Below are positions 5,272 through 26,724 of a stretch of DNA of 36,275 nucleotides, one piece after another (within the stretch, counting starts at the first letter, position 1; each line of letters opens with the position of its first letter). The position numbers and the translations under genes are program-made. The notes beneath the pieces were generated by a model, which had not been told where the DNA came from, ran no database searches, and saw only the letters and a program-made list of their open reading frames with translations. Origin of the DNA: an uncultured Anaerolineae bacterium (GTDB taxonomy: Bacteria > Chloroflexota > Anaerolineae > Anaerolineales > Villigracilaceae); contig CAIWAX010000361.1 in assembly GCA_903910795.1 (NCBI GenBank), forward strand, positions 1-36,275, written 5' to 3'.

Positions 5272-5310
5272 ATACTGAACTTACATTTGCCCTGTGGGTG
5301 GGTACTTTCC
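5272..5310 (+). repeat. Dispersed element copy, CCCTGTGGG form
   Basis: Begins ATACTGAAC and ends GGTACTTTCC, with a middle module containing TTGCCCTGTGGGTGGG. It lies in the spacer between the divergent glycosyltransferase gene and ffh, in the direction of ffh, about 130 bases before its start. It is the only plus-strand copy seen; the other copies lie on the minus strand with minus-strand genes. Confidence 0.8.
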
Positions 5311-5403
5311 AAGAGGTATTTTTCACTACTTTTGCATATAATCATATCATACCGCCTGTTAGACCAAAAATTCATTGTGGTAATTTTTCGACGCTGTAAT
5401 CCA

Positions 5404-5432
5404 TTGACCCTGAAAGCCAAACACGCTACAAT
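5404..5432 (+). promoter_or_regulatory. ffh promoter, apparently leaderless
   Basis: TTGACC (5404-5409), a 17-bp spacer and TACAAT (5427-5432) make a near-consensus housekeeping promoter. Only 9 bases separate the -10 from the ATG at 5442 and there is no Shine-Dalgarno, so the start site should fall within a few bases of the start codon. Confidence 0.7.
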
Positions 5433-5441
5433 CTTCTCGCC

Positions 5442-6764
5442 ATGTTTGAAAACCTGACTAATCGACTTAACCAAGTATTTGATAACCTTCGCCGGCGCGG
5501 AAAATTATCCGAAGCAGATGTTGATGCTGCCATGCGCGAAGTCCGCCTGGCCTTGCTCGAAGCTGATGTTCATTACAGCGTGGTCAAGAGCTTTATTGCT
5601 CGTATCCGCGAACGAGCCGTTGGGGCAGAAGTGTCCCGGGCTTTGAACCCAGGCCAGCAAGTGATCAAGATCGTTCACGAAGAACTTATTGCCACGCTCG
5701 GTGAAGCTGCCCCGCTCAATCTAACCGGCCCAAAACCGCGTGTAATTTTGATGGTTGGCTTGCAGGGTTCCGGGAAAACCACTCAGACTGGCAAACTGGC
5801 CAGGCTTCTGCGTGCCAAAGGTGAGCGCGTCATGCTTGTGGCTGGCGATCCGTACCGCCCGGCAGCCATTCAGCAGCTTCAGCAGTTGGGCGAGCGTGTA
5901 AGTGTTCCTGTGATCGTGGATACCAGCAAGAAACCGCCGGAACTGGCAGCCTATGCGCTTGACCAGGCCCAAAAAGGCGGTTACTCCGTTATGATCGTAG
6001 ACACGGCTGGCCGTTCCCAGCTTGACGAAGCCCTGATGACAGAATTGAGGGCGATCGAGAAAAAAATCCAACCGGTTGAGGTTCTGCTGGTTGTGGATGC
6101 CATGATCGGGCAGGAAGCCCTGCATGTTGCCGAGGGTTTTCGGGATACAGTCGCCATCACCGGGTTGGTGCTGACCAAAATGGATGGCGATGCGCGCGGC
6201 GGTGCCGCCATTTCTGTCCGTTCTGTCACAGGTGTGCCCATTAAATACCTGGGTACGGGTGAAAAACTCGATGCGCTTGAAGCCTATGACCCCGGCCGGA
6301 TGGCATCGCGCATCCTGGGTATGGGAGATATGATCGGCCTGATTGAGAAGGCCGAGGCTGCTTTTGATTCCCAGACGGCGCAAAAGCAGGCCGAGAAAAT
6401 GATGAAAGGCCAGATGGATCTGGAAGACTGGCTGGATCAGATGCGGCAGATGCGCAAAATGGGTCCCCTCAGCCAGATCATGGAAATGTTACCCGGTCAA
6501 CTCGGGCAGGCTGCCAAATCCGTTGATCCTCGTGATATTGAAAATAACTTCAAGCTAATGGAATCGATTATTAACTCCATGACTCGTAAGGAGAGGCGCG
6601 ATCCTGAAATTCTGAATGCATCCCGCCGCCGGCGCATCGCCAGTGGGTCGGGGCATGAAGTCCAGGATGTTAATCGTTTGATTAAGCAGTTCCGGGAAAC
6701 TCAAAAATTGATGAAGACCCTGCAAAAAACAGGCATGAAGGGTCTCCCAAAACTCTTCGGTTAA
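5442..6764 (+). CDS. ffh: Signal recognition particle GTPase Ffh
   Basis: The 440-residue SRP54-type GTPase binds SRP RNA and signal peptides and delivers ribosome-nascent chain complexes to FtsY at the membrane. The N domain (residues 1-90) is followed by the G domain with P-loop GLQGSGKT (106-113), DTAGRSQLDE (about 187) and TKMDGDARGG (about 246). The Met-rich M domain (about 325-440) includes GQMDLEDWLDQMRQMRKMG and the RNA-binding region around SRRRRIASGSG. Length is typical. It heads the cluster ffh-rpsP-khpA-rimM. The closely spaced promoter suggests a leaderless mRNA. No SRP RNA gene was recognised nearby. Confidence 0.98.
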   Translation: MFENLTNRLNQVFDNLRRRGKLSEADVDAAMREVRLALLEADVHYSVVKSFIARIRERAVGAEVSRALNPGQQVIKIVHEELIATLGEAAPLNLTGPKPRVILMVGLQGSGKTTQTGKLARLLRAKGERVMLVAGDPYRPAAIQQLQQLGERVSVPVIVDTSKKPPELAAYALDQAQKGGYSVMIVDTAGRSQLDEALMTELRAIEKKIQPVEVLLVVDAMIGQEALHVAEGFRDTVAITGLVLTKMDGDARGGAAISVRSVTGVPIKYLGTGEKLDALEAYDPGRMASRILGMGDMIGLIEKAEAAFDSQTAQKQAEKMMKGQMDLEDWLDQMRQMRKMGPLSQIMEMLPGQLGQAAKSVDPRDIENNFKLMESIINSMTRKERRDPEILNASRRRRIASGSGHEVQDVNRLIKQFRETQKLMKTLQKTGMKGLPKLFG

Positions 6765-6773
6765 TTCCCTTCA

Positions 6774-6779
6774 TATAAT
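6774..6779 (+). promoter_or_regulatory. Candidate -10 box for the rpsP leader
   Basis: A perfect TATAAT ten bases after the ffh stop codon. A matching -35 box is not convincing. It would place a start near 6786 and give rpsP a structured leader of about 170 nt. Confidence 0.35.
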
Positions 6780-6821
6780 GTGATTTTTCAGGTAAAATAA
6801 CTGTTCGGGCATATCAGCCTT

Positions 6822-6921
6822 GTGGGAGGCACTCCTTTCGTGCTCACCTTGCTCACAGTGGTTGTCGCCAACCAATGGAGGGTATGTACCTCGGCCACAA
6901 AATGGGGCCTCAGTCATACTC
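6822..6921 (+). ncRNA. Structured 5' leader of rpsP, three stem-loops
   Basis: Three consecutive stem-loops can be drawn: 6822-6847 (GTGGGAGGCAC against GTGCTCAC), 6859-6874 (perfect TGGTTG/CAACCA around a TCGC tetraloop), and 6878-6921 (GAGGGTATG against CATACTC). They occupy the untranslated stretch before rpsP. No poly-U follows, so this looks like a leader rather than a terminator. No known leader family was recognised; an autoregulatory S16-binding site is possible but unproven. It lacks the conserved SRP RNA domain IV signature. Confidence 0.4.
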
Positions 6922-6957
6922 ATCAAATTAATCTAAGTTAAGGAGTAAGTAAATTCC

Positions 6958-7299
6958 ATGGTTCGCATTCGTTTACGCCGTGTCGGTCTCAAGAACCAAC
7001 CTGCCTACCGTATTGTTGTTCAAGACTCAGAAAAACCCCGTGATGGGCGTTTCCTTGAGATCGTCGGTTTCTACAACCCCCGCACTGAACCCGGCACCCT
7101 GACCATTGACGAAGCTCGTGTCTTTGAATGGATGCACAAAGGTGCGAAGCCTACTGAATCGGTTGCCCAGCTTTTCAGGACAACCGGTACTTCTGATCGT
7201 TTTGCCCGTCTTCGCAAGGGCGAGGCATTGGAAGCTCTGTTGGAAGAAGGTAAAGCCGCAGAAGTTAAGCGCGCTGCACCGCTCACAACCAATAGATAA
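6958..7299 (+). CDS. rpsP: 30S ribosomal protein S16
   Basis: S16 binds 16S rRNA during assembly of the small subunit. The 113-residue sequence opens MVRIRLRRVGLKNQPAYRI and contains VVQDSEKPRDGRFLEIVGFYNP, unmistakable for the family (the motif is interrupted here only for brevity). A typical S16 has 80-90 residues; this one has an extra basic C-terminal tail of about 25 residues, as seen in several phyla. AGGAG at 6941-6945 is 12 bases from the ATG, slightly long. It sits between ffh and khpA, with a structured leader ahead and a MITE-like element behind. Confidence 0.98.
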   Translation: MVRIRLRRVGLKNQPAYRIVVQDSEKPRDGRFLEIVGFYNPRTEPGTLTIDEARVFEWMHKGAKPTESVAQLFRTTGTSDRFARLRKGEALEALLEEGKAAEVKRAAPLTTNR

Positions 7300-7306
7300 T
7301 TATTTT

Positions 7307-7473
7307 GTAACTACTCAGCCATGTCATTGCGAGTGAGCGCTCTCCAGCGAGCGTGGCAATCTCCTCACCGGGAGCAGGGATTGCCACGCCGCCACACCTG
7401 TCCCGGTGTCCTTCGGGAAAGAACAAAAGCGGCGGCTCGCAATGACAATTTCGGAATATGGCTGAATAGTAAC
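7307..7473. mobile_element. MITE-like element with nested inverted repeats
   Basis: The outer ends GTAACTACTCAGCCAT (7307-7322) and ATGGCTGAATAGTAAC (7458-7473) are inverted copies with two mismatches. Inside them, TGTCATTGCGAG (7322-7333) and CTCGCAATGACA (7436-7447) are perfect inverted repeats, and GTGGCAATC / GATTGCCAC form an inner pair. There is no coding capacity. The TCATTGCGAG ends match a dispersed intergenic family common in many environmental bacteria. It separates rpsP from khpA, which normally follow closely. Confidence 0.7.
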
Positions 7474-7621
7474 ATTATTTTTTTTCCATATAATCCGGTT
7501 TCCAGCGTGGAATGAGGTGGTGAGGAAAAAGGCGATTTTTTTCGCTCTTTCCTGAGTACCCATAAAACCTGGTTACCGGTATATTTTTGGATTTGGGCGA
7601 GGTACAGGCCCAGAGGAGCAA

Positions 7622-7855
7622 ATGAAAGTCCTCACTGAATACATTGCCAAAGCACTTGTTGAAAACACTGAACAGGTGGAAGTTATGGAATCCCGCCAGG
7701 GAAATCGCGTTCGATTAGAACTTAAGGTGTCAAGAGATGACATGGGACGCGTAATCGGGAAGAGTGGTCGTGTGGCGAATGCAATCCGTGTGTTGTTGCG
7801 GGTTGCCGCAGAACGCGAAGGACAACAGGTAACGCTTGATGTGTTGGAGCCTTAA
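7622..7855 (+). CDS. khpA: KH-domain RNA-binding protein KhpA
   Basis: A 77-residue single KH domain protein that binds RNA, usually with KhpB, and affects translation and cell shape in Gram-positive bacteria. The GXXG loop is GKSG (residues 46-49) in VIGKSGRVANAIRVLLR. The length is typical. GAGGAG (7613-7618) immediately precedes the ATG. Its TAA overlaps the rimM ATG by one base (TAATG), so the pair is probably translationally coupled. The position between rpsP and rimM is the classical one. Confidence 0.95.
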   Translation: MKVLTEYIAKALVENTEQVEVMESRQGNRVRLELKVSRDDMGRVIGKSGRVANAIRVLLRVAAEREGQQVTLDVLEP

Positions 7856-8460
7856 TGTCGGCCTCCAATGTGACCGAGTTTACTGATCTTCCAGGCTCGC
7901 CAGCAGTCGGCGAGCCTGTTGTCTATTTGGCAGTCGGCACTCTGCGACGATCTCATGGGATTCACGGAGATTTACTGGTTGATGTGATAACGGATTTTCC
8001 AGAGCGTTTGAAACCGGGAACTTTTGTTTTTCTTGGTGAGAAAAAACAACCTTTAAAAATTACCCGTCGAAGATTTCATAACGATGGGTTGATTCTTGGG
8101 TTTGAGGGCATTAATAATGCCGAGCAAACCGCGAAATATCGCACCCAGATGATTTATGTTAAAGCTGTGGATCGACCGGCCTTACCCGCTGGCGAGTATT
8201 ATCATCACCAGGTTCTGGGATTGAGCGTGGTTGATGAAAATAATGTGGCGCTCGGAACCATCAGCGAGATTATTATCACTGGCGCGAATGATGTTTATGT
8301 TGTTACTCCCGCCGGGGAAACTCCAGCGCGTGAAATTCTAATTCCGGCAATTCAACAAGTTATTCTGGATGTAAACCTGGAGGCCAGGACGATGCGGGTT
8401 CACCTGTTGCCCGGGCTGATTGCCAATAACGAGAACACTGAAGAAACAACAGAAGATTGA
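7855..8460 (+). CDS. rimM: 16S rRNA processing protein RimM
   Basis: RimM assists maturation of the 30S head and binds S19. The N-terminal RimM domain shows VGTLRRSHGIHGDLLVDV (about residues 27-45). The C-terminal PRC-barrel begins GEYYHHQVLGLSVVDE and includes NDVYVV and EILIPAI. At 201 residues it is a little longer than usual, with extra residues at both ends. In most bacteria trmD and rplS come next; here dprA follows instead. Confidence 0.95.
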   Translation: MSASNVTEFTDLPGSPAVGEPVVYLAVGTLRRSHGIHGDLLVDVITDFPERLKPGTFVFLGEKKQPLKITRRRFHNDGLILGFEGINNAEQTAKYRTQMIYVKAVDRPALPAGEYYHHQVLGLSVVDENNVALGTISEIIITGANDVYVVTPAGETPAREILIPAIQQVILDVNLEARTMRVHLLPGLIANNENTEETTED

Positions 8461-8482
8461 TTGTCGATCCGCATTGGAAAAA

Positions 8483-9601
8483 ATGGACGATAAACGTTAT
8501 TGGGTTGGTTTCTCATTGGTCAAAGGAATCGGGGCAGTCCGTTTGCAGACTTTGCTCGATTACTTTGGCGATACAAAAACCGCCTGGAGCGCTTCTGGTA
8601 TTGACCTTGTTAGAGCGGGTCTGAGTGCCAGACTGGCAGAGCGGGTCCTTCTGGCCAGGTCGAGTGTGAATCTCGATGAATACATGATCCAGATGGGGAA
8701 AAACAACATCCAGGTACTTACCTGGGAAGATGTTGATTATCCTGCCCACCTGAAAGAGATTGATCAACCGCCACCAGTGCTTTATACGCGGGGCGAATTA
8801 ACCGCCGAAGATGCCTGGGCGGTTGCAATTGTGGGCACGCGTTCGGTCAGCCCATACGGCCGCCAGGTAACTGAAGAACTCGCAACGGTGCTTGCCCAAA
8901 ACGGCGTGACTGTTGTGAGTGGTTTGGCGCGCGGCGTGGATGCGGTTGCACATCAGGCGGCCCTGAAGGCTGGCGGCAGAACGCTGGCCGTGCTGGGTTC
9001 TGGTGTGGACAAAATATATCCTCCTGAACATCGCCAATTGGCAGAAAAACTTGCGCTGCATGGCGCCATTCTCAGCGATTATGCCCCTGGAACACCACCG
9101 GACAGCGCAAATTTCCCGCCACGCAACCGCATCATCAGCGGATTGTCGATGGCTGTGGTAGTTGTAGAGGCCGGGGATGTCAGCGGTGCGCTGATTACTG
9201 CAGGGTTTGCCGCAGATCAGGGGCGTGAAGTATTTGCAGTACCGGGTTCTGTGTATGCACCTCAATCCAGGGGCACCAATCGTTTAATTTCCAATGGCGC
9301 CAGAATATTACTGCAGCCCACTGACGTGCTCACGGCGCTGGACCTAACCCGTAATGTTGAACGCCGTGAAATCAGGCGAGCCTTGCCTGCCAATGACACC
9401 GAGGCAGCCGTTCTGAATTCCCTTGGCGCGGAACCAATCCATGTTGATGAAATCCGCGCCCGCCTGGGTTTGCCGATTGAAAAAATATCTGCAGCGCTTA
9501 CGATGATGGAGTTGAAGGGAATGGTAAGGCAAATGGGCGGCATGAATTATGTAGCCATCCGGGAAGAGCAGGCAGAGTATAAACTTTCTGGAGGAGAGTA
9601 G
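8483..9601 (+). CDS. dprA: DNA-processing protein DprA
   Basis: DprA (Smf) loads RecA onto incoming single-stranded DNA during natural transformation. The start at 8483 (MDDKRYWVG) is chosen because the family begins with this W-containing segment; an upstream in-frame start at 8420 would overlap rimM. The 372 residues show an N-terminal helix-hairpin-helix region (1-60), then the extended Rossmann fold with VAIVGTRSVSPYG (115-126), VSGLARGVDAVAH (145-157), GSGVDKIYPPEH and FPPRNRIISGLS, and a C-terminal winged-helix of about 60 residues. It precedes topA, a widespread pairing. Presence suggests, but does not prove, competence. Confidence 0.95.
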   Translation: MDDKRYWVGFSLVKGIGAVRLQTLLDYFGDTKTAWSASGIDLVRAGLSARLAERVLLARSSVNLDEYMIQMGKNNIQVLTWEDVDYPAHLKEIDQPPPVLYTRGELTAEDAWAVAIVGTRSVSPYGRQVTEELATVLAQNGVTVVSGLARGVDAVAHQAALKAGGRTLAVLGSGVDKIYPPEHRQLAEKLALHGAILSDYAPGTPPDSANFPPRNRIISGLSMAVVVVEAGDVSGALITAGFAADQGREVFAVPGSVYAPQSRGTNRLISNGARILLQPTDVLTALDLTRNVERREIRRALPANDTEAAVLNSLGAEPIHVDEIRARLGLPIEKISAALTMMELKGMVRQMGGMNYVAIREEQAEYKLSGGE

Positions 9602-9826
9602 GTTATCTTTCCAAAATGAATAGGCAGTTTGGAATTTCATGGTCAGGGGACGGTTCATCCTTTCATACGCCTGAGGAAACATCACCTCAAAGTACCAAAT
9701 TCCCCACGTTGATGATGTGGTTGTGTTATCCTGTGTTTTACTTATATTTTGATTGTTTTTGGAAGTTGAAGAACTTTACGGAGCAACTGGTAATGTATTC
9801 CAGTGTTCGCTAATTTAAACAATTTT

Positions 9827-9874
9827 GTTAAGCAATCTGCTGCAGGCAAGCTTTGCCCTGGAGGCGGGCTTAAC
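9827..9874 (+). promoter_or_regulatory. Nested stem-loop just upstream of topA
   Basis: GTTAAGC (9827-9833) pairs with GCTTAAC (9868-9874), enclosing the smaller hairpin GGCAA-GCT-TTGCC. It ends four bases before the likely Shine-Dalgarno (GGAGG) of topA. No U-run follows, so a leader structure affecting translation or a supercoiling-sensitive site is more likely than a terminator. The rest of 9602-9826 shows no gene or clear signal. Confidence 0.4.
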
Positions 9875-9888
9875 AAGATGGAGGTTAG

Positions 9889-12201: not shown

Positions 12202-12257
12202 CGGATCAGAATGATCTATTGATCGTGTATACATGTTCGCGAGCTGTAAATTTCTTG

Positions 12258-12263
12258 TATAAT
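12258..12263 (+). promoter_or_regulatory. Candidate -10 box for unknown gene
   Basis: A perfect TATAAT about 35 bases before the ATG at 12298, which also has a good AGGAG ribosome site at 12286-12290. No good -35 match is seen at 16-18 bases. Confidence 0.45.
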
Positions 12264-12297
12264 AGGTAAAACGTACGTTCTGGGATAGGAGCGCAAC

Positions 12298-13302: not shown

Positions 13303-13309
13303 AGATTAC

Positions 13310-13349
13310 AAAAACAGCAGAGAGTGGATAACCATCCTCTGCTGTTTTT
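13310..13349 (+). terminator. Strong intrinsic terminator
   Basis: A 13-bp perfect stem, AAAAACAGCAGAG (13310-13322) with CTCTGCTGTTTTT (13337-13349), 14-nt loop, and a T-run in the distal arm. It ends the unknown two-TM gene seven bases after the stop codon. Confidence 0.9.
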
Positions 13350-13412
13350 CTATATTTTAAAAAGCCCCGCAGGAAAAATATCAGCATGTTTTCCCTGGCC
13401 TACAGGGTATTA

Positions 13413-13418
13413 TATAAT
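13413..13418 (+). promoter_or_regulatory. Candidate -10 box of ybaK, leaderless
   Basis: TATAAT ends seven bases before the ATG at 13426, so the transcript would begin at or next to the start codon. No Shine-Dalgarno is present. The -35 is poor (TTTTCC, 18-bp spacing). Confidence 0.5.
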
Positions 13419-13425
13419 CAATCCC

Positions 13426-13923
13426 ATGACTTTGGTGAATAATGTAACCCGTTTCCTGGATGCCAGGAAGATCAGGTACACCGCTTTTGAAACAGTGGCT
13501 GAAAAACTTGGCGCTCTGGAAACAGCCCGGATTTTAAATATTGATCCTGCCATCGTTTACAAGACAATTGTGATTACCCGTCAAAAACCGGGGAAACCGA
13601 TTTTGGCGGTGATCCCCGGTACTGGTCAGGCAGATTTGAAATTGATCGCGGCCGCGGTTGGGGAGAAAAAAGTAAATTTACCCACAGAGAAAGAAGCCGA
13701 AACATTGACAGGTCTGCAAGCGGGAGGTATTTCTCCTCTGGCCTTGATTAATAAGGGTTTTCAGGTTGTGATCGATGGCTCTGCAAAAAATCTTCCGGAA
13801 CTGCACGTTTCTGGCGGTCAGCGCGGTTTGAATCTGGCGCTGTCTCCTGATGACCTGGCAGCGCTTACAAATGCGCGTTTCGCACTTATTTCCACGCCGC
13901 TGGATGCGGCTGGCGAAAAATAA
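13426..13923 (+). CDS. ybaK: Cys-tRNA(Pro) deacylase, YbaK/EbsC type
   Basis: YbaK hydrolyses Cys mischarged onto tRNA(Pro). The start MTLVNNVTRFLDARKIRY is chosen because it matches the family N-terminus and sits just after a TATAAT; an ORF extension to 13324 would run back into the preceding terminator. In the resulting 165-residue protein the family's catalytic lysine falls exactly at K46 (PAIVYKTIVI). Other family signatures are VIPGTGQADLKLIAAA, GGISPLAL and VIDGSAKNLPELHVSGGQR. It is monocistronic as far as can be seen. Confidence 0.93.
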   Translation: MTLVNNVTRFLDARKIRYTAFETVAEKLGALETARILNIDPAIVYKTIVITRQKPGKPILAVIPGTGQADLKLIAAAVGEKKVNLPTEKEAETLTGLQAGGISPLALINKGFQVVIDGSAKNLPELHVSGGQRGLNLALSPDDLAALTNARFALISTPLDAAGEK

Positions 13924-14617: not shown

Positions 14618-17029
14618 TTATGTCAGGTTGATTTCGGTTTGTTCTCGAAAGTGTTTCCGATAGGATCGACCCTCATTCAGACAATTTTTGAGCTCAGTAG
14701 AAATTGATTCAGTGTGAATCAAGCTCGATTTTCCGTCATCAGTCAGAAGTACATCCCCATTCGCCTTTATATCCAGTGTCAGACTGCCATTTTGGGATAA
14801 ACACTCGAGACCCAGGCGTACTGCTATCTCTCTCTGCGCCAGGGCCGCGGCCAATTGCGAAAGGCTGGTTTTTCCAGATTTTTTATTCAGTACAAACTTG
14901 ACCAATCCAGCCAGACGATCGAGCATGGCTTGAGGTTCATCGAAACCGGGATCAATTGCAAACACGATCACTTTTTCTGGATTTACCTTTGCCATCGCGG
15001 ATAGAAGTTCCTGGCGGGAGGGGGGTGTTGTCCAAATAATCAGCGTTTGCGCGGGGATCAGTTCACTGCGATCCTGCCCACCAACCCGTTTTTTCTCTTC
15101 GGCTTCAGCCCAGCAAACAAGATTGCCTGCGTTTTTCTCAATAGTATGGAAAGTACCCATAAGTTCGGTATGGAAAGTACCCATAAGTTCGGTATGGAAA
15201 GTACCCATAAGTTCGGTATGGAAAGTACCCATAAGTTCAATAAGGGTACCTTGCGGGTTTGGTCTTGTCCGGTAATCGATGATCTCTAGTTTTTTCCTGG
15301 CAAGGGCAACTTCTTTCACTTCCAGCGCGCGGAAATCGACAAACTCCAGTTGCGCCTGCCTGGAACCGTGCCAATCGCTGGCGCGTAAAGAATAGGCCAG
15401 ATCGAAGCGGGAGGGCAGGTTTTCTTCACTTCCGCCATCCCACCATAGCACCTGGCCGGTGCTGCCGTTTTCATCGACAACAGTCACTTTTAGATGCTCT
15501 TTTGTCTTGCCCAGTTTTGTGCTTGATTTCAAGCCCAGGTTGTGGCTTGCCAGGATTAATTTGGCATTCCCGGGGCCAAAAGGCGCGAGGCTTTCCAGTT
15601 GTTCTGCCAGCTCAAGGTTGGCATCTTCCAGACCGATCCAGCTATTTATTTGCAACGAGCCTTCCTGTTGTAATTTGCCGCCGAGCATCCTTTCCACAGT
15701 CTGCGCTATTTTTCTGCGAAATTCTGGCAGTTTCTCGGCTTCAAGAGATAATCCAGCCGCCATGGGGTGCCCACCAAAACCAATCAATAGTTCTTTTTGG
15801 GCCGCGATTGCTGCGGTGATGTTGACACCTTCAATTGAGCGGGCCGAACCGCGCACAGGCTGTCCGGGCGGGGCAGTTAATAAGATGGCGGGTTTGTGAT
15901 ACCGCTCAACAATGTTGCTGGCCACAATTCCAACAATTCCACCCGGCCAGAGTGGATGGGCCAGGATAATCACCGGCTGCGCAAGCAGCTCGGGATTGGC
16001 GCGCAACTGTGCTTCCGCGGCCTGAAGCACCTGGTCGCATTCCAATTTGCGCTGCGCATTCAGGCTCTCAAGTTGGACTGCCAGCACACGCGCCCGGCTG
16101 GCATCGTTTGTGGTTAAAAGTTCCACCATGGAGTTGGCATCACCCAGCCGTCCGATGGCATTTAATCTGGGCCCAAGCGCAAAACCGATATGTTCTTCGG
16201 TCAGGTTGGCGGCTGAGACTTCGGCCAGCTCCATGATTATTTTTAAACCGAGCCTTTTTGTTTGACGGAGTTCAGCCAGCCCTTTTTGTACCAGGTAACG
16301 GGCATCGCCACGCAGGATAGCCAGATCGGCGACCAGGCCCAGCGCCACCAGATCAAGCAAATGGAAAGTACCTATAAGTTCAGTATTGTCTGGAAGGAAA
16401 TTCTTGGGCTGGAGTCGGGCGATTAATTCTTCGGCTAATTTATAGGCCACTCCCACCCCTGCCAGGGTTGCCAGGGGATGATCTTCTGGCAGCATTTTGG
16501 GATTTACCACCGCGCAGGCATCCGGCAGTTTATCCGGCAAATCATGGTGATCTGTGATGATCATATCCACGCCGCGGGAACGGGCATAACTGACTTCGGC
16601 ATGGGAACTGATGCCGGTATCACAGGTAACGACCAGTTTTGCGCCTTGATCTATTACTTTTTCCAGATTTTCGAGGTTCACGCCGTGCGATTCGGTTTGC
16701 CGTATGGGGATATGGTAATTGACAAGCGCGCCCAACTCTCGAAAACTTTGCACAAGCACGGTTGTGGAAGTTTGCCCATCTACGTCAAAATCACCCCAAA
16801 CGCAGATGGGTTCTCCGGTTTGTATGGCGCGGATGATTCTCTCTACCGCGGCAGAAAGGCCGGGTAAATCGGATGCGGGCGCGGGAATGTATATTTCTGG
16901 ATTTAGGAAGGCCAGGGCGGCGGCTTCATCCGTAATACCCCGGGCGATGAGCGTCTGCCCAATCAAAGGATGAAAATTGGGAAGGAAGGGTTGTCCTTCA
17001 TGAATGACAGGTTCAAGCCAGCGTGTCAT
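14618..17029 (-). CDS. recJ: Single-strand exonuclease RecJ with repeat inserts
   Basis: RecJ degrades single-stranded DNA 5' to 3' in recombination and mismatch repair. The 803-residue protein has the DHH phosphoesterase core with GDFDVDG (D80, D82, D84) and TDHHD (DHH at 160-162), GPRLNAIGRLGD, a DHHA1 domain with GGHPMAAGLSL, an OB-like domain and a C-terminal extension. Two places encode the dispersed element in frame: residues about 215-223 (TELIGTFH) and four tandem copies at about 597-628 (eight-residue unit ELMGTFHT). Both lie outside the catalytic motifs, the second in the linker before the C-terminal extension. The reading frame is intact, so the protein is probably functional. Confidence 0.96.
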   Translation of the reverse strand: MTRWLEPVIHEGQPFLPNFHPLIGQTLIARGITDEAAALAFLNPEIYIPAPASDLPGLSAAVERIIRAIQTGEPICVWGDFDVDGQTSTTVLVQSFRELGALVNYHIPIRQTESHGVNLENLEKVIDQGAKLVVTCDTGISSHAEVSYARSRGVDMIITDHHDLPDKLPDACAVVNPKMLPEDHPLATLAGVGVAYKLAEELIARLQPKNFLPDNTELIGTFHLLDLVALGLVADLAILRGDARYLVQKGLAELRQTKRLGLKIIMELAEVSAANLTEEHIGFALGPRLNAIGRLGDANSMVELLTTNDASRARVLAVQLESLNAQRKLECDQVLQAAEAQLRANPELLAQPVIILAHPLWPGGIVGIVASNIVERYHKPAILLTAPPGQPVRGSARSIEGVNITAAIAAQKELLIGFGGHPMAAGLSLEAEKLPEFRRKIAQTVERMLGGKLQQEGSLQINSWIGLEDANLELAEQLESLAPFGPGNAKLILASHNLGLKSSTKLGKTKEHLKVTVVDENGSTGQVLWWDGGSEENLPSRFDLAYSLRASDWHGSRQAQLEFVDFRALEVKEVALARKKLEIIDYRTRPNPQGTLIELMGTFHTELMGTFHTELMGTFHTELMGTFHTIEKNAGNLVCWAEAEEKKRVGGQDRSELIPAQTLIIWTTPPSRQELLSAMAKVNPEKVIVFAIDPGFDEPQAMLDRLAGLVKFVLNKKSGKTSLSQLAAALAQREIAVRLGLECLSQNGSLTLDIKANGDVLLTDDGKSSLIHTESISTELKNCLNEGRSYRKHFREQTEINLT
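15146..15241 (-). repeat. Four tandem copies of the dispersed element in recJ
   Basis: Four 24-bp units (starts 15146, 15170, 15194, 15218), near identical, each reading on the minus strand ACCGAAC then TTATGGGTACTTTCCAT. The unit length is a multiple of three, so the array adds 32 residues to RecJ without a frameshift. There are no spacers between units, which rules out a CRISPR array. Confidence 0.95.
16361..16387 (-). repeat. Dispersed element, single short copy inside recJ
   Basis: On the minus strand it reads AATACTGAAC then TTATAGGTACTTTCCAT, one mismatch from the short consensus. It encodes TELIGTFH in a loop after the DHH domain, in the same frame as the tandem array. Confidence 0.85.
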
Positions 17030-17048
17030 GGATGCCTGTTATCCGTCT

Positions 17049-17909
17049 CTAAAACTCAATTTCCTGGATCTGTTCCAGGTTTAGTTCCCAATCAGAATCG
17101 GCACCGGTTTCGCTTTCTTCGCCAGCTTCTGCGCGGATGCCGCGTTCACAATAGGAGCGAAATGGGCAGAAACCGCATTTCTTTTCATCCTCTGTCAGCG
17201 GAAAACTTTGTTTGGCAGATATCTCGCGTAAAAGGTTGGATAATCCAGCCCAGTCTTGGTCATGATGTTGTTTATCGTAGGGAAAACGGGATGGCTCGGA
17301 GGGAAATTCAGCATACCAGTAGACCATCTCAACATTTTCAGGCGCGAAGGGCTGGCCCCCGTTTAAGTGTGCGCCTGCCGCGATCAAGAGGCTTAGATAA
17401 ACGCGGGTTTGTAACCGGATTGCCATCCATTCATCCCTGGGGCGTTTGTGGTAAGTTTTCCAGTCATATATGGTGGCCCGCCCATCCTTTATAGCGATCA
17501 AGTCGTACTTGGCGGTAATGCGCTGGCCGCCAAGCGGCGCTGAAAGTGTTTGCTCTGGGAAGGTTGTCCGTTCGTCATGGAAAGTACCCACGATTTGATT
17601 AGCAAATCGTTCGGTTTGGAAATGATCCCACCAACGTGCCAGGTTTTGGCTGTTTGAATTTTTTGCCATGGCATTGATTTTATCAATTGGCAATCCAAGA
17701 AAATATTGGTGCAGCATGCGGTGAAATTGCTGGCCTTCGATTTGGCGGCGTTCATTTTCCAATACCGGAGCGGTTTCCACCGCTGGCCACTGCAAATGTT
17801 CAATATACCTTAATTGGAATCGCCGGTTGCAATCGACATAGTCTTGCAAGGATGATTGTGAAAAGATAAAAGGCGCGGGGAGCTGGGAGTGCAGGATTTT
17901 TTCTGGCAT
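17049..17909 (-). CDS. RecB/AddB-like Fe-S nuclease (PD-(D/E)XK)
   Basis: A 286-residue stand-alone PD-(D/E)XK nuclease of the RecB/Cas4/AddB superfamily. The core shows YDLIAI (D136), YDWKTY (D149, K151) and QTRVYLSLL (Q167, Y171). Four cysteines, C27 (YVDCNRRFQLRYI) and C245, C248, C254 (CGFCPFRSYC), match the split 4Fe-4S site of AddB and Cas4. No helicase or cas genes are near; it is followed 19 bases on by recJ, suggesting a joint role in DNA end processing (inference). Residues about 99-111 (RFANQIVGTFHDE) are encoded by a palindrome-type copy of the dispersed element. Confidence 0.88.
   Translation of the reverse strand: MPEKILHSQLPAPFIFSQSSLQDYVDCNRRFQLRYIEHLQWPAVETAPVLENERRQIEGQQFHRMLHQYFLGLPIDKINAMAKNSNSQNLARWWDHFQTERFANQIVGTFHDERTTFPEQTLSAPLGGQRITAKYDLIAIKDGRATIYDWKTYHKRPRDEWMAIRLQTRVYLSLLIAAGAHLNGGQPFAPENVEMVYWYAEFPSEPSRFPYDKQHHDQDWAGLSNLLREISAKQSFPLTEDEKKCGFCPFRSYCERGIRAEAGEESETGADSDWELNLEQIQEIEF
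17577..17615 (-). repeat. Dispersed element, palindrome form, inside nuclease gene
   Basis: The 5' and 3' flanks of the element surround the imperfect palindrome CGATTTGATTAGCAAATCG (17591-17609) in place of the usual TTA. The 39 bp keep the reading frame. Confidence 0.85.
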
Positions 17910-18282
17910 TGGATGGGTAAAGGTTTGGTCAAATTTTCGTGGGGTTGGATGCCGAAATGGAAAGTACCCATAAGTTCAGTATTGTAACACCTGCCGGGAG
18001 GGGATGATTGGAGGCCGGGGGGTGATCAAAAATATGTTTTTGGGCAGTTAATTTTGCCCAGTTTGTTCCAGAAGCAGTATTTTGGGCTTTGTGAAGGCAA
18101 TACAGGGCTCTGGCAGCCTCTCAGGTAGATTTCTCTAGCAGATAATATATTTGAGCGTGTAGAGCGTTCAGAAGTCGATTCTGGCAATCTGAAAGCGTAA
18201 ATTTCGATGCAGAAAGAATTGCCTTCCAAAAACATGACCTCCATCACTACCGCAAGAGCGACAAAAGACCTACACTATCGGC
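17910..18282. other. Divergent spacer between nuclease and molybdoenzyme genes
   Basis: The 373-bp spacer holds one dispersed-element copy (17957-17983) on the nuclease side and a possible -10 box TACACT (18271-18276) just before the molybdoenzyme start. No gene, RNA or clear operator was seen in the remaining 18000-18260. Confidence 0.5.
17957..17983 (-). repeat. Dispersed element, short form, upstream of nuclease gene
   Basis: Exact short consensus on the minus strand (AATACTGAAC, TTA, TGGGTACTTTCCAT), 48 bases upstream of the nuclease start and in its orientation. Confidence 0.9.
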
Positions 18283-21998: not shown

Positions 21999-22008
21999 CA
22001 GGTAAACA

Positions 22009-22041
22009 AAAAAGCGCGGGGTGTGTTACCCCGCGCTTTTT
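22009..22041 (+). terminator. Strong terminator after the dmsBC-like gene
   Basis: A 14-bp stem, AAAAAGCGCGGGGT (22009-22022) with ACCCCGCGCTTTTT (22028-22041), and a 5-nt loop. With A-run and T-run in the arms it could act in both directions. Confidence 0.92.
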
Positions 22042-22042
22042 G

Positions 22043-22422
22043 GAAGAATATTCGTAACTGCTCACGGGGTAGGTGCTTTTTGGCAGGAACCCATCCTCGC
22101 GAAGAACGCGCGAGGTGAAAGAACCCCCGGCCCCCGCCAAGAACACACGATTTGCGATTTGCTTAGCAAATCGGCAAATCGCACCAGAACGCAAGTGCAG
22201 ATGTGCGGGGTGAAAGAACCCTTCCCAAAATCGGGAATGGGGAGACGGTACTTTTCGGGGTGTTTTCGCGCAGCGGCCAAATTCAGGCCGCGTCACGAAA
22301 ACACCACTTGCTGAGAACCCACAGGGCGCTTTGCGAACCAGTGATTTTCGTTTCACTTGGGCATTAAAATTTGCTGATTATGCCTAAACCAAGACATGGG
22401 TGAGCAGTTACGAATATTCTTC
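22043..22422. mobile_element. 380-bp TIR-bounded, hairpin-rich element
   Basis: Perfect 23-bp terminal inverted repeats (22043-22065 and 22400-22422, beginning GAAGAATATTCGTAACTGC) bound a non-coding 380-bp block. Inside are hairpins 22095-22115 (CCTCGCG/CGCGAGG), 22154-22182 (around CGATTTGCTTAGCAAATCG), 22222-22237 (TTCCC/GGGAA) and the two-tier 22259-22305 (GGTGTTTTCG/CGAAAACACC enclosing GCGGCC/GGCCGC). GGTGAAAGAACCC occurs twice (22114-22126, 22209-22221). Short ORFs in it have no family resemblance. It lies between convergent genes, directly after the terminator. A MITE or a structured RNA are both possible. Confidence 0.75.
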
Positions 22423-22423
22423 G

Positions 22424-23779
22424 CTAACCTTTTTGTGGAGCGGCATCCGAATTTGCACCGGCCAGGCGCACATTTACCACGTTTTTCAGGATGTCGAACC
22501 AGAACGGTGCGCCCTGCGCCGCAGCAATCCCTGAGATGAGCAAACCGAATAATTTCATCAGCCAGCCGGTCAGATCGTTGAACCCGGGGGTATTGATCAT
22601 CGGATAACATTCACTTCCCAAATAAAGACCAAAAAGATCCGTAGCAGATTGGGCCAGTGGTGTGCAAAGCTTTTCCACGCCATCCCCTGTTACTACTGTA
22701 CCGTTGGGCGAGGCCGGAAGGGCCGTGCCGATCCATCCTACCGGCACGTTTAATTGGGTAATCTGTGTATTTAGCGCTAAGAGCTGACTGGGGGTCGGAG
22801 TACCAACACCGTTAGGGTTCTGGCTTACGAGCGCATCTGCCTGAGCCGCCAGGGCCTGTCGCATGATTGGATCACGCCATAATTGTGTTGCGAGCTGTAG
22901 AGAGTCCACATTCAGAATAAGCGCAAGCGAAAGCCCGATGAAAAAAGCCAGTGTCTGGGCCCGGCGCTTATACCATCCGCTTAAACGATCCATGCTGTTG
23001 TTAAACCAGTCTTCAATATTGGCGCCTACTGTCTCGAGCGTATTGATCGTCTTGTCGCTGAAATCTTTTATATCAATAGTCAGGGCTTCAAGTGCCTGTT
23101 TCAGATCAGGGTGGGTAATTCCCATCACCGCCAACCCGGCTTTGAACTGGTAGATGGGGGAATCCTGCGGTGTGCCACTATTTGCTGTCTGGAATTCCGA
23201 TAAAATATTGTCGATTTGTTTTTTCTGTACGGCGAAGGCCGTGAATTTCGCCTCAATCACCGGCTGCAGTTCGGGGTAATCTGTACTTAATTTACGGATG
23301 ATCTTTTTGACGTCATCCAATATTCCATTTGCGACGTCCGGGCTTGAGTCGTTCGTAATGGCTTTGCGAGTCAAATCAATTGCCTGGTCAAGCTGTTGCT
23401 GCGCCTGCTTTCGTTTGGTGTTATTTAGTTTTCCCAGATCGTTTTCCAGTTCGTAGAGGGTTTGCTGGATGAAAGCGGCTTCTTTTGGCGAGTTCCGAAT
23501 GATATCAATCAACGCCAGCGAAAATTGTCCTGATGGTATATAGGAAGGTTTGGTCTGTCCATCAAAACCGTTGTAAAGGCTTTTGACTAACTGGTGGTCA
23601 TAAACTTGCCTGGCTAATGTCCGGTTTGCCAGCAGGTTCCCAATTGAATTTTCCAGCATGTGCGAACGCCAGTTAAGTTTGCTGACGATCAATTCTTGAA
23701 TGTACATGCCTGCCAGGCTAATTACAAGCCAGGCAAAAATCATGCCGGTTGCAACTTCCAGAATTCCTACAATGGACAT
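22424..23779 (-). CDS. Unknown membrane-anchored protein
   Basis: Not recognised. The start at 23779 (MSIVGILEVATG) is chosen because AAGGAG lies seven bases upstream; an extension to 23818 would overrun the probable promoter. The 451 residues have an N-terminal membrane helix (about 5-28), a long, charged helical region with KPSYIPSGQFSLALIDII, two more hydrophobic segments around residues 275-295 and 415-440, and a soluble loop between them rich in Thr/Pro/Asn. Homologues of this architecture exist in other phyla without known function. It is the last gene of the leftward series. Its stop lies two bases from the TIR element. Confidence 0.8.
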   Translation of the reverse strand: MSIVGILEVATGMIFAWLVISLAGMYIQELIVSKLNWRSHMLENSIGNLLANRTLARQVYDHQLVKSLYNGFDGQTKPSYIPSGQFSLALIDIIRNSPKEAAFIQQTLYELENDLGKLNNTKRKQAQQQLDQAIDLTRKAITNDSSPDVANGILDDVKKIIRKLSTDYPELQPVIEAKFTAFAVQKKQIDNILSEFQTANSGTPQDSPIYQFKAGLAVMGITHPDLKQALEALTIDIKDFSDKTINTLETVGANIEDWFNNSMDRLSGWYKRRAQTLAFFIGLSLALILNVDSLQLATQLWRDPIMRQALAAQADALVSQNPNGVGTPTPSQLLALNTQITQLNVPVGWIGTALPASPNGTVVTGDGVEKLCTPLAQSATDLFGLYLGSECYPMINTPGFNDLTGWLMKLFGLLISGIAAAQGAPFWFDILKNVVNVRLAGANSDAAPQKG

Positions 23780-23797
23780 TTTTTTCTCCTTTTTGTA

Positions 23798-23803
23798 ATT
23801 ATA
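23798..23803 (-). promoter_or_regulatory. Candidate -10 box for the unknown membrane protein
   Basis: TATAAT on the minus strand, about 20 bases before the chosen ATG at 23779 and with AAGGAG between them. No clear -35. Confidence 0.45.
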
Positions 23804-23859
23804 CTGCGTATAGCTCATGTAAAAAGTATGGCAGGATCAGAGCCTGGCTGATTCTCAGC

Positions 23860-23886
23860 ATGGAAAATACCCATAAGTTCAGTATT
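23860..23886 (-). repeat. Dispersed element, short form, upstream of unknown membrane gene
   Basis: Short form with one change (TATTTTCC for TACTTTCC), located between the HAD gene stop and the next gene on the same strand, in that gene's orientation. Confidence 0.88.
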
Positions 23887-23897
23887 GTCAGGCTGTT

Positions 23898-24641
23898 TTA
23901 GTCAATGAAAGGCAGATTAATGATCAAAGAGGGGATATCTCCCAGGTTTTCCACGACCGCATCGGGTATCACCGAAATAGGAGATAATTTTTTTGCGCGG
24001 CGCTTTATCCAGATCGTGTAAATTCCCAATGGCCGGGCTCCTCTTATATCCGCATCCAGACGATCGCCAACCATGGCAACTTCATCGGGCAAGTATCCCC
24101 ATTGTTCCAGTGCCAATCCGAAAATATAAGGGTGCGGTTTTCGGTAGCCGCAAGCTGCGGAGGTTAAAATGAAATCGAAATAGGGTTCAATTCCGAAATT
24201 TTTAACCTGTTGGCGCACATCCCGGTCATCACCGGCGTTTGAGATTATTCCCAGGTGAAAACCTGAATGATGCAGTCTTTCAAGGGCCGGGATGGCATCC
24301 AGTTCAAGATGCCAATTTTGCTGGGTAACTGCATAGAACTCATCCAGGGCTTCGCGCAGCACGCCGGTGGGGATATTATGCTGACCTTTTTCCAACAAAA
24401 GATTCCGCAGAATTGTCAGCGTATTGGTTTCCCGCAAGTTGCGATCCCGTTCAGTGTAATATTCATCCAGTGCTTTGAGAAATGTCTTGTAAAAATCATC
24501 CTGATTCAACCTGGCGCCATGGGAGACCAGCACATTGGCAAGCGTTTGACCGGCGCGCTCAAAAACAGGCGGCCAGGGGTCAGGCGAATACATCAATGTA
24601 TCGCCCAGGTCAAATAAAACGGCTTGAATGACTCGATTCAT
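23898..24641 (-). CDS. HAD-superfamily hydrolase
   Basis: A 247-residue haloacid-dehalogenase-fold phosphatase-like protein. Motif I is FDLGDTL, the variant in which the second Asp shifts by one; motif II is IISNAGD, motif III K in CGYRKPHPYIF, and motif IV MVGDRLDADIRGA. The helical cap lies between motifs I and II, subtype IA. The start at 24641 (MNRVIQ) is chosen; the ATG is formed by the last bases of a dispersed-element copy, and an in-frame extension to 24665 would be made only of element sequence. The spacer to the upstream dehydrogenase gene consists entirely of two element copies. Substrate unknown. Confidence 0.9.
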   Translation of the reverse strand: MNRVIQAVLFDLGDTLMYSPDPWPPVFERAGQTLANVLVSHGARLNQDDFYKTFLKALDEYYTERDRNLRETNTLTILRNLLLEKGQHNIPTGVLREALDEFYAVTQQNWHLELDAIPALERLHHSGFHLGIISNAGDDRDVRQQVKNFGIEPYFDFILTSAACGYRKPHPYIFGLALEQWGYLPDEVAMVGDRLDADIRGARPLGIYTIWIKRRAKKLSPISVIPDAVVENLGDIPSLIINLPFID

Positions 24642-24720
24642 GGAAAGTACCCACCCGCAGGGCAAGCGTAAGTTCAGTATGGAAAGTACCCACCCACAAG
24701 GGTAAGTGTAAGTTCAGTAT
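24640..24720 (-). repeat. Two tandem dispersed-element copies, CCCTGYGGG form
   Basis: Units at 24640-24678 and 24679-24720, both with a long middle module (GCTTGCCCTGCGGGTGGG and ACTTACCCTTGTGGGTGGG on the minus strand). They fill the whole gap between the dehydrogenase stop (24720-24722) and the HAD start codon, touching both. Confidence 0.92.
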
Positions 24721-25733
24721 CAGTAACCGCGATTTGGATCGAAAAGGTTGTAAAGCGGTAAATCTGCCAGGTAACGGTTGAGATTTTCGCTGAATAATTG
24801 TGCAGCCCGCTCGTTATACAATGCACTTCCACCCGAGATGTGGGGACTGATGATCAGACCGGGTGTTTGCCAGAGCGGGCTGCTTTGCGGCAAGGGTTCT
24901 TCGGGAAAAACATCCAGGGCTGCTCCGGCCAGTTGGCCGCTTTTGAGCGCATCGATCACATCGTTAATTTTTACAATACTACCGCGCGATACATCCACCA
25001 GATATGCGCCTGGTATGAGGGCTGCCAGCGCGCTGGCATTGATCAGGCCGACAGTTTCTTTCGTGAGCGGTGCCGTCACAATCACAAAATTACATTCCTT
25101 GAGCATTGTTTTTAATGCCTGAGGCGGATACAGGCGCAGGATAAGATCGCCCTGCGGGTCGCCCTGGCCTTCAGGGATAAAGCCCTCATCCAGGGGATTC
25201 ATGGCATTGTGTTTGATTGCCAGCACTTTCATGCCGAACGGTTGCAGCAGCCTGGCAACCTGCCTCCCCACGCTTCCATAGCCAACGATCCCACAAGTTT
25301 TCCCGTTCAGTTCAAACGGAACATAACGATCAAAACGATCTTTGGGCCATTCTGATTTTTTCTGATGAGTGATGATCGCGGGCAGTTTGCGGGTTAGCGC
25401 CAGCAGCATGCCCAGTACATGCTCAGCCATTTGCGGCGCGGCGGCGCCGCTTAGTGTTGTCACTTGCAGGTCTGGTTTTTTTATAATCGGTTCTTCCAGA
25501 TACCGGTCAATTCCCGCGAAGTGAAACTGGATCCAACGCAGGGCTGGCACTTGTTCAGGAACGGGAAGGATGTTACCGGTATAAAGGATTTCCGTGCGCG
25601 CCCATAGCTCTGCCGGAATTTCGCTCGCTTTTTGAACTGAAACCGCTGTGACATTGATTTTCGGCGAAACGTTGGAGAGCCGGGTGATCAAAGGCTCAGG
25701 GAATGGGATGGTAATAAGAACTTCAACTGACAT
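24720..25733 (-). CDS. D-2-hydroxyacid dehydrogenase
   Basis: A 337-residue NAD(P)-dependent D-isomer-specific 2-hydroxyacid dehydrogenase. The nucleotide-binding motif is GIVGYGSVGRQVARLL; the catalytic Arg is in VDVSRGSIVKI, the Glu in LDVFPEEPLP and the His in ISPHISGG. The segment FIPEGQGDPQG between strand and helix of the NAD domain is typical of a subgroup frequent in Chloroflexota. It starts nine bases after the CPBP gene stop, so the two are cotranscribed; its stop codon touches the tandem element. Substrate (glyoxylate, hydroxypyruvate or other) cannot be told. Confidence 0.92.
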   Translation of the reverse strand: MSVEVLITIPFPEPLITRLSNVSPKINVTAVSVQKASEIPAELWARTEILYTGNILPVPEQVPALRWIQFHFAGIDRYLEEPIIKKPDLQVTTLSGAAAPQMAEHVLGMLLALTRKLPAIITHQKKSEWPKDRFDRYVPFELNGKTCGIVGYGSVGRQVARLLQPFGMKVLAIKHNAMNPLDEGFIPEGQGDPQGDLILRLYPPQALKTMLKECNFVIVTAPLTKETVGLINASALAALIPGAYLVDVSRGSIVKINDVIDALKSGQLAGAALDVFPEEPLPQSSPLWQTPGLIISPHISGGSALYNERAAQLFSENLNRYLADLPLYNLFDPNRGY

Positions 25734-25742
25734 GAGATGTAT

Positions 25743-26681
25743 TTATCCAGAATGATTATTTCGGAAATCAGACCCGCGGGGCACATGACGTGCGTAAGCA
25801 AAAATCAACGCGGAACCTAATAATAAGGCCGGTATTACCAATAACCCGGCTTCGGGGCCAAAGATACCCCCAGTCCACAATTCGGGCCCACTGACAGTGT
25901 GGCGCAGCAGGTGGAATGTATCCGATCCGCTTACTGGGAATCCAAACACCACACCTTCAAAGAAGTTCCAACCAATATGTATACCGATGGAAAGCCACAG
26001 TTGGCGGGTCAGAATAAACGGCAGGGCCAGGAATAGCCCGGCCAGAAATATACCCAGGGTTGAAATCCAGGTTGCTCCGTTATTGAAGATGTGCAGGAAA
26101 CCGAATATGCTGGAAGAGATCAAAACTGCCCAGAATAAATTAAGGCCACTTTCGAGATTCTGCAACTGGTAACCGCGCGAAAGCAGTTCTTCCTGCCATC
26201 CGACAATCAGGAATATCACCAGCCACAGGCCAAGTCTCGCCAGGATGGTTGGCGCAGGCTCTGTTTGCCAGGCGAACCCATCAAATTTTGTCCATCCCAA
26301 TCCAATCTCGATGCCAAAGATCAATCCAATCTGAAAAAGAGGGATCAGCATCCCAACGAAAACATCTTTTGCCGCCAGAAAATCTGGTTTTAGCCCCAGG
26401 CTGATCACGGATCGTTTGTCCAGGAAACGTCTTGCGATGAAGGTTGAGGCTGTGATCCCAACCAGCATGCTTAATTCATTGGCGGCCAGGGCCAGCGGCG
26501 AATCGAAACCGATTTTAAATAGCCCGATTGGGATGAAAAAAACAATTCCCGCCAATGGGGTGATGACGATCAACAGGATTGTGTGTAACGCCAAGCGCCA
26601 TCCAGCTCGCAGACGGGGTTCGTTGGTTGACAGAAAAATTTTCTGGAGCCAGTTATGTTTTTGCGGTTCTGTGTTATTCAT
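25743..26681 (-). CDS. CPBP-family intramembrane metalloprotease
   Basis: A 312-residue polytopic protein with CPBP/Rce1 motifs: EELLSRGY (EExxxR), FGFLHIFNNG (conserved His) and IGWNFFEGVVFG. The family includes prenyl-protein-type endopeptidases and bacteriocin self-immunity proteins. The start at 26681 (MNNTEPQ) is preferred, since the 21 codons upstream are dispersed-element sequence (encoding NDLLSKSWVLSS) opened by a TTG. No Shine-Dalgarno is visible. It is followed by the hydroxyacid dehydrogenase gene. Confidence 0.88.
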   Translation of the reverse strand: MNNTEPQKHNWLQKIFLSTNEPRLRAGWRLALHTILLIVITPLAGIVFFIPIGLFKIGFDSPLALAANELSMLVGITASTFIARRFLDKRSVISLGLKPDFLAAKDVFVGMLIPLFQIGLIFGIEIGLGWTKFDGFAWQTEPAPTILARLGLWLVIFLIVGWQEELLSRGYQLQNLESGLNLFWAVLISSSIFGFLHIFNNGATWISTLGIFLAGLFLALPFILTRQLWLSIGIHIGWNFFEGVVFGFPVSGSDTFHLLRHTVSGPELWTGGIFGPEAGLLVIPALLLGSALIFAYARHVPRGSDFRNNHSG

Positions 26682-26683
26682 GC

Positions 26684-26724
26684 TGGAAAGTACCCACGAT
26701 TTGCTTAGCAAATCGTTCAGTATT
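26684..26724 (-). repeat. Dispersed element, palindrome form, at CPBP gene start
   Basis: The flanks surround the palindrome CGATTTGCTTAGCAAATCG (26697-26715), an 8-bp stem with a 3-nt loop. The identical 19-mer occurs inside the TIR element (22155-22173). The copy ends two bases before the chosen CPBP start. Confidence 0.9.

Follow-up and report, generated by a model that had tools for sequence, protein, structure and literature searches.

The DNA considered here is a stretch of 36,275 nucleotides (nt) from an uncultured Anaerolineae bacterium (contig CAIWAX010000361.1), hereafter called the window. At eight loci it carries a repeat unit, 24 nt long in its basic form, upstream of or inside genes, and the question raised by these copies is whether the unit acts in the messenger RNA (mRNA) of the genes or moves as DNA. 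A first-pass annotation of the window had described conserved ends around an exchangeable middle, together with an orientation that always matched the gene, and had proposed either a function in mRNA or a strand-biased mode of insertion. We consider it rather probable that the unit is a micro mobile element resembling the small dispersed repeats (SDRs) of cyanobacteria, that it is inserted through a single-stranded, fork-polar intermediate and, taking this explanation as a whole, that it has multiplied within one species and belongs to a poorly understood class, that of the smallest mobile repeats.

Unit structure and occurrence

The source genome is 92% complete and comprises 5,010,433 bases on 496 contigs. 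It contains 331 exact occurrences of the 3′ core of the unit, TGGGTACTTTCC, versus a single one of the reversed control. The sequence AACTTATGGGTACTTTCC occurs 189 times, and ATACTGAAC, separated from the core by a gap of 1–30 nt, 103 times. For a closer analysis 120 stretches were fetched, 110 from contigs with listed core matches and 10 from contigs without. Together with the window this sample comprises 1,496,237 bases and holds 264 of the 331 exact cores. It yielded 371 core matches with at most one mismatch, of which 363, in 268 loci, were retained; the eight that were dropped had one mismatch and no recognisable 5′ half, whereas exact cores were kept even if this half was missing. Genes were predicted by a simple hexamer caller written for this analysis, so that start positions are approximate. 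Within the window, TGGGTACTTTCC with up to two mismatches has 14 matches where 2.5 are expected, a number reached in none of 100 shuffles. The matches at 23112 and 35488 lack the 5′ half and resemble chance occurrences.

The sequence of the unit is ACTGAACTTATGGGTACTTTCCAT or, if its boundary is moved by one base, TACTGAACTTATGGGTACTTTCCA; with a middle module it reaches 39 or 63 nt. Among the 309 units with both ends, the middle measures 3 nt in 214 (192 times TTA), 18 nt in 67 and 42 nt in eight, and its length is a multiple of three in 298; these counts support the description of conserved ends around an exchangeable middle. Three types of middle were found, namely TTA, a palindrome (GATTTGCTTAGCAAATCG-type, 35 of the 309 units), and TTA followed by a 15-nt CCCTGYGGG module; most middles of 18 nt belong to one of the latter two. 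The last type, with a CATTTGCCCTGYGGG-like module and counted at any length near 18 nt, reads forward in 34 cases and is reversed in two. Both the 15-nt module and the palindrome also stand alone elsewhere in the genome, and the 42-nt middle resembles a palindrome interrupted by one more insertion. Units form arrays of up to six, and the inserted sequence is nearly always a whole unit. Copies, often as arrays, were also observed at the ends of contigs (C130, C201, C254, C262, C336 and others), where they probably break short-read assembly; the copy number may consequently be underestimated.

Among 121 genomes an exact 19-mer of the unit occurs only in its own, being absent from all 120 relatives, ten of which belong to the same genus. 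The core itself is found in relatives at control level (35 matches in 26 of the 120, versus 39 for the reversed control). Degenerate copies were considered as an explanation of these matches and rejected, as all 16 that were viewed in context (from seven relatives) lack the 5′ half and appear chance-like. A scan of public genome contigs for an exact 21-mer, which may omit the genome's own record, returned one stretch (L151), deposited in a metagenome-assembled genome of the Rhodospirillaceae. It shares 99.9% identity over 8 kilobases (kb) with contig C386 of the source genome, with the copies in place, and probably comes from the same species and was placed in the wrong bin, a binning error in the public record; it also represents a separate assembly of these copies. 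The plasmid collection held nothing nearly matching 4 kb of this stretch, and the exact 21-mer was not found in viral contigs.

Orientation relative to genes and chromosome

All eight loci of the window lie where the first-pass annotation had placed them. Its sequence details stand except that the copy at 16361 reads TAGGTACTTTCC, the one at 23860 reads TGGGTATTTTCC, and some 5′ ends are ACCGAAC or ATTGAAC. The only copy on the plus strand is a 39-nt unit with a 15-nt CCCTGTGGG module (5272..5310) upstream of ffh (gene 5442-6764, with SRP54 domains). On the minus strand, recJ contains both an array of four tandem 24-nt units in frame (15146..15241, encoding ELMGTFHT four times), which is absent from the aligned RecJ loci of the same genus, and a single 24-nt unit in frame (16361..16387, TELIGTFH). 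A gene for a PD-(D/E)XK nuclease carries a 39-nt unit with palindromic middle in frame (17577..17615, minus), at a position where the alignment of orthologs is ambiguous, and is preceded by a single 24-nt unit (17957..17983, minus). Another single 24-nt unit, the TGGGTATTTTCC copy, lies upstream of the gene at 22424-23818 (23860..23886, minus). Two tandem units, 39 and 40 nt long and containing the CCCTGYGGG module, reach with their right end up to the ATG of a gene for a HAD hydrolase (24640..24720, minus), and a 39-nt unit with palindromic middle is located directly upstream of a gene for an Rce1-like protease (26684..26724, minus).

All eight loci are co-oriented with the adjacent or containing gene, and five of them precede a start codon by no more than about 130 nt, as would be expected of a cis-acting RNA element, for instance a translation or mRNA-stability signal, sense-oriented before starts and in genes. 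Genome-wide this regularity disappears. When the 268 loci were compared with confidently predicted genes (score at least 50), 25 copies were intragenic in sense and 27 in antisense orientation (P=0.89) and 121 were intergenic; 42 loci overlapping gene ends, 30 at contig edges and 23 without flanking genes were set aside. In gaps between co-directional genes, 37 copies have the same and 40 the opposite orientation (P=0.82). No clear excess near starts was detected either: 40 copies in such gaps are nearer to a start and 37 nearer to a stop, and tandem, divergent and convergent gaps contain 77, 33 and 11 copies versus 72.8, 29.2 and 19.1 expected (P=0.13). The loci that overlap gene ends include, if all predicted genes are used, 25 antisense and nine sense copies, a ratio that likewise contradicts co-orientation; in many of the antisense cases the gene caller took the CAT end of the copy for the ATG of a gene, and counts close to starts are therefore uncertain. 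This tabulation over 1.5 Mb of the genome was the check set by the first-pass annotation, and its result, random orientation without clear enrichment near starts, is the one that had been named as speaking against the proposal. An orientation directed by the gene was accordingly rejected. A function in mRNA is consequently not supported. Moreover, a search of the window against Rfam 15 at gathering score gave no match, and the 24-nt form folds no better than shuffled sequences. We regard a cis-acting RNA element as most improbable.

The alternative proposal, a strand bias of insertion, fares better, with the amendment that the bias follows the local chromosome strand and not the strand of the gene. 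Pairs of loci were analyzed for 231 of the 268 loci, excluding poor matches and copies inside a miniature-transposon-like repeat. At distances of at least 1 kb on one contig, 175 of 232 pairs are co-oriented, while shuffles give a mean of 116 and a maximum of 149, and none of 2000 reaches the observed value. The agreement amounts to 59/66 pairs at 1–3 kb, 59/73 at 3–7 kb and 50/72 at 7–15 kb. For pairs 1–10 kb apart it is independent of gene strand, with 88 of 103 co-oriented where the nearest genes share a strand and 61 of 72 where they do not. When each fetched stretch was given one vote, 118 of 136 loci on the 35 stretches with at least three loci have the majority orientation (reached in 0/5000 simulations), and 19 stretches are unanimous where 6.1 are expected.

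The same polarity is displayed by a second, unrelated family of 15 nt. Three tandem copies of it (CATGCGCCCTGYGGG) occur in the window independently of the 24-nt unit (3098..3146, plus strand), with the same local polarity as the plus-strand copy at 5272; this array falls inside the open reading frame 2789-5224. Outside the 24-nt unit the fetched DNA contains 83 merged loci of the family, of which 59 of 67 pairs are coherent, and 130 of 168 pairs formed by one locus of either family agree in orientation, a value that none of 1000 sets of contig flips reached. Copies nested in the 24-nt element show 34 forward versus two reverse orientations. Two other repeats, with at most one pair each, were of no use as polarity controls. 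Local hopping was considered as a cause of the coherence and rejected: on the fetched stretches the loci are not spatially clustered (pairs within 3 kb number 99 versus 90.8 expected) and neighbours do not clearly share variants, which argues against local duplication.

Coherence could also be inherited from old large blocks, inversions or regional import of DNA instead of arising from a strand-specific mechanism. Such an origin would suit the decay of coherence within about 15 kb and the switch inside the window from plus (3098 and 5272) to minus (from 15 kb onward), but it does not readily account for the agreement between two unrelated families irrespective of gene strand, and we regard it as unlikely. 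The polarity that remains would most simply be that of the replication fork. Two proxies of replication direction gave little guidance: in the comparison with gene-strand bias the co-oriented fraction is 0.455 (95% interval 0.38–0.53), and the window and 119 of the 120 fetched stretches together have nine tRNAs, which is too few.

Insertion sites, mechanism and coding copies

How the unit is inserted is revealed by other repeats of this genome, which exist in copies with and without it. The target reads Y-N-W-T^N-N-N-G, and insertion is clean, without target duplication. A frequent host is the miniature-transposon-like repeat, present in the window as an empty copy without assigned strand (22040..22425, ends GTAACTGCTCAC and GTGAGCAGTTAC). 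Its empty form has CAT^CACG at the insertion point, and filled forms are longer by exactly 24, 39 or 63 bases. The repeat (22043-22422 in the window) has matching ends of 23 base pairs and 26 merged left-end matches in the fetched DNA. Consistent results were obtained with other repeats and the paralogue pair L094/L057; the comparison comprised 24 queries with gap-free matches, including one self-match inside an array (L102) and one poor junction fit (L068). Across 166 non-redundant singletons, Y at position -4 occurs 142 times, W at -2 158 times, T at -1 152 times and G at +4 91 times (all P<1e-13). The unit boundary is ambiguous by one T, and on sequence grounds we favour a unit that begins with this T, because the T on the right is more variable and one empty site has C instead (L105/L141, 84% identity).

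Two conventional modes of insertion were tested and rejected. A target-site duplication would place equal bases on both sides, but a left pair TT (44 cases) is accompanied by AT on the right in 37 cases and by TT in none. Similarly, a miniature inverted-repeat transposable element does not fit, as no inverted ends were seen and the left and right dinucleotides are equal in 1 of 64 cases when the left one is not AT. The flanking bases preferred by the 24-nt class resemble those preferred by the 39-nt class; since forms with a swapped middle share the kind of target, it is the two ends that count. The end-to-end joint of the element, CCAT^ACTG, is itself a target-type site, and tandem arrays are thus to be expected.

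This resemblance between the left flank YNWT of the target and the right end CCAT of the element would also suit template switching or microhomology copying at the fork without a dedicated enzyme, in which a CCAT-like nascent end anneals in an array, copies one or several units and returns. Arrays of up to six units and a common local strand agree with such copying. However, the fetched stretches show neither spatial clustering nor clear variant sharing between neighbours, and inserts consist, with few exceptions, of complete units; we consider such copying a doubtful explanation.

In a single-stranded, fork-polar insertion, an activity acting in trans would instead mobilise the element in the form of a tandem or circular joint (joint sequence CCATACTG) and insert it at the replication fork, where one template strand is single-stranded. 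The route might be like IS200/IS605-REP transposition or involve reverse transcription primed on the lagging strand, with a single-stranded or RNA intermediate, and insertions into genes would be retained only where the register yields a harmless hydrophilic octapeptide. An observation suggestive of target pairing, though not proof of it, is the covariation between the internal base before TGGG (index 9) and the base to the left of ACTG in the left flank. A at index 9 coincides with T (198 T, 2 C) and G with C (8 C, 1 T; Fisher 5e-12), and in singletons the counts are 113 T and 1 C for the A-type versus 4 C and 1 T for the G-type. The genome has 19 G-type sites, one of them cut by a contig end; 17 of the 18 readable sites (8 of 9 loci) have C, and the one with T is in contig C339. 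If the flank base belongs to the unit, the covariation may reflect one inherited subfamily. As a further, tentative and rather unlikely idea, a host-encoded machine of this lineage might insert both the 24- and the 15-nt units at the fork, into one single-stranded template, with the internal ATGG pairing with the YNWT target and orientation recording the direction of the fork; if this pairing were true, the smallest known mobile elements would carry their own target guide.

Several results weigh against insertion through a single-stranded, fork-polar intermediate. Coherence of orientation drops to 7 of 18 pairs at 15–30 kb and 0 of 3 at 30–70 kb, a decay that needs rearrangement or another cause. 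The relation to GC skew is weak: the strand of negative skew carries 126 of 213 loci (P=0.009, the loci not being independent), and contig-wise the relation is not significant. Folding of the 24-nt unit together with its target flank is at the level of shuffled sequences (z=0.02); of the four oligonucleotides folded, the palindromic form alone surpasses them (z=-4.3). As to the covariation, much of it resides in arrays, and the right-end base covaries with index 9 less strongly (P=3e-5 for all units, P=0.057 for singletons). In the 39-nt class, furthermore, every listed 18-nt middle ends in G and the left flank is still T in 45 of 49 cases, which argues against a strict pairing requirement. 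Finally, no mobilising enzyme was found among the candidates tested in this 92% complete genome. PF01797 (Y1 transposase) has one match, in a fused protein that is not flanked by copies of the repeat and that is also encoded by 17 of 20 relatives lacking the repeat, and no copies are located near the two reverse transcriptase genes.

The fused protein with the PF01797 match has 561 amino acids (L162, 1474-3159) and possibly contains a domesticated transposase domain. The reverse transcriptase family PF00078 has three matches in the two genes. One gene (L179; G000:C178) adjoins a gene for a formylglycine-enzyme-like protein, in a locus which we take to resemble a diversity-generating retroelement with this neighbour as its presumed target protein. 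In the other (L180; G000:C292) the reading frame has two PF00078 matches that are separated by a long stretch, and it adjoins what we assume to be a Cas1-like gene. Tyrosine recombinases (PF00589), a third kind of candidate mobiliser, have eight matches in the genome.

A related option is that the repeats are REP/REPIN sequences proper, moved by a RAYT (Y1) transposase. They are short and dispersed, 35 of the 309 units have palindromic 18-nt middles, and clean insertion with strand polarity would fit transposition of a single strand. The 24-nt form that accounts for 214 of the 309 units, however, has no evident palindrome, and a free-standing RAYT gene with copies of the repeat beside it was not seen; we hold this option to be quite improbable.

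Inside genes the copies occupy preferred registers. Counting the first copy per locus, sense insertions encode TELMGTFH in 23 of 25 cases and antisense insertions MESTHKFS in 22 of 27. The target motif alone predicts the preferred, other open and stop-containing phases at 0.47/0.43/0.10 for sense and 0.57/0.12/0.31 for antisense copies. The antisense register is thus explained by target phase and avoidance of stops, while the sense register requires, in addition, that the other open frame, the hydrophobic ILNLWVLS, be selected against. Among the hosts are, in sense orientation, recJ, alaS and the gene for glutamate synthase and, in antisense orientation, genes for an AddA/UvrD-like helicase (below curated cut-offs) and a LysW-lysine hydrolase. 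Of the same-genus genomes, seven were aligned at the single copy of recJ and seven at the array, and in none of them does RecJ have the octapeptide. At the single-copy site, two of them have a gap of exactly eight residues (G010 and G007; L154, L156), and a third (G008; L153) has a loop that is almost as long but made up of different residues; the insertion sites are loops of variable length among the same-genus genomes. Solved alanyl-tRNA synthetases match the alaS product in an alignment that, as shown, stops short of the insertion. Programmed translational bypassing elements are a known kind of in-gene insert, and were rejected here since most inserts have a length divisible by three, the reading frame remains open, and antisense and intergenic copies occur as well. 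Seemingly selfish DNA has in this way added eight-residue peptides to core enzymes (RecJ, alanyl-tRNA synthetase, glutamate synthase).

Relation to known short repeats

The letters of the unit, entered as three strings, had no text match in the literature searched. At the level of titles and abstracts nothing pertinent emerged on such repeats in Anaerolineae or Chloroflexota, and nothing on strand-oriented short repeats at title level.

Three known systems, compared by their descriptions in the cited papers, share some features with the element. Rickettsia palindromic elements are palindromic, about 150 base pairs long and inserted in frame in unrelated protein-coding genes (PMC10969869). The in-frame insertion into unrelated genes is shared, whereas the units described here have 24, 39 or 63 nt, lack an evident palindrome in the 24-nt form and, in most classified copies, lie outside genes. 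REP/REPIN sequences with their RAYT are short, non-autonomous dispersed repeats with a possible single-strand mechanism (PMC3116915, PMC6006769). In contrast to them, the main 24-nt form has no stable hairpin (the 39-nt palindromic class has one), and a linked RAYT was not found. Elements of the IS200/IS605 kind recognise their target by base pairing (PMC5934647, PMC6006769). Clean insertion 3′ of a short motif that is kept in the left flank, a possible circular joint and an internal base covarying with a flank base are all reminiscent of these elements. The differences, within what those accounts cover, are that the 24-nt form has no hairpin ends, no linked tnpA and a total length of 24 nt.

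Small dispersed repeats, for their part, reportedly consist of units of about 21–27 nt, insert into one another and occur inside minitransposons, and some of their families are said to have a conserved secondary structure with compensatory changes. The SDRs of Nostoc and its relatives (Elhai et al. 2008, as cited in PMC3116915, PMC2884548 and PMC4390886) are the nearest known kind, set beside the 24-nt element by description. In line with that description, the 24-nt unit (214 of 309) falls inside the range of about 21–27 nt, is dispersed (331 exact cores), is precisely inserted according to the empty sites seen here for the 24-nt unit, and has nested middle modules as well as copies inside the miniature-transposon-like repeat (22043-22422 type). 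With regard to structure, the element has one covarying pair, which possibly marks one subfamily, and the 24-nt fold does not exceed shuffles. It differs from SDRs in sequence context and organism, and it is further characterized by many in-frame intragenic copies in both orientations, conserved ends with an exchangeable middle, and a local polarity shared with a second family.

To our knowledge, the mobility of repeats of about 24 nt has been unsolved since their description in cyanobacteria. The present case supplies an exact target, empty sites, a rule for the tandem joint, in-frame intragenic copies and a polarity common to two unrelated micro-families. If this polarity is replicative, the mechanism would be narrowed to one that reads a single strand of the chromosome.

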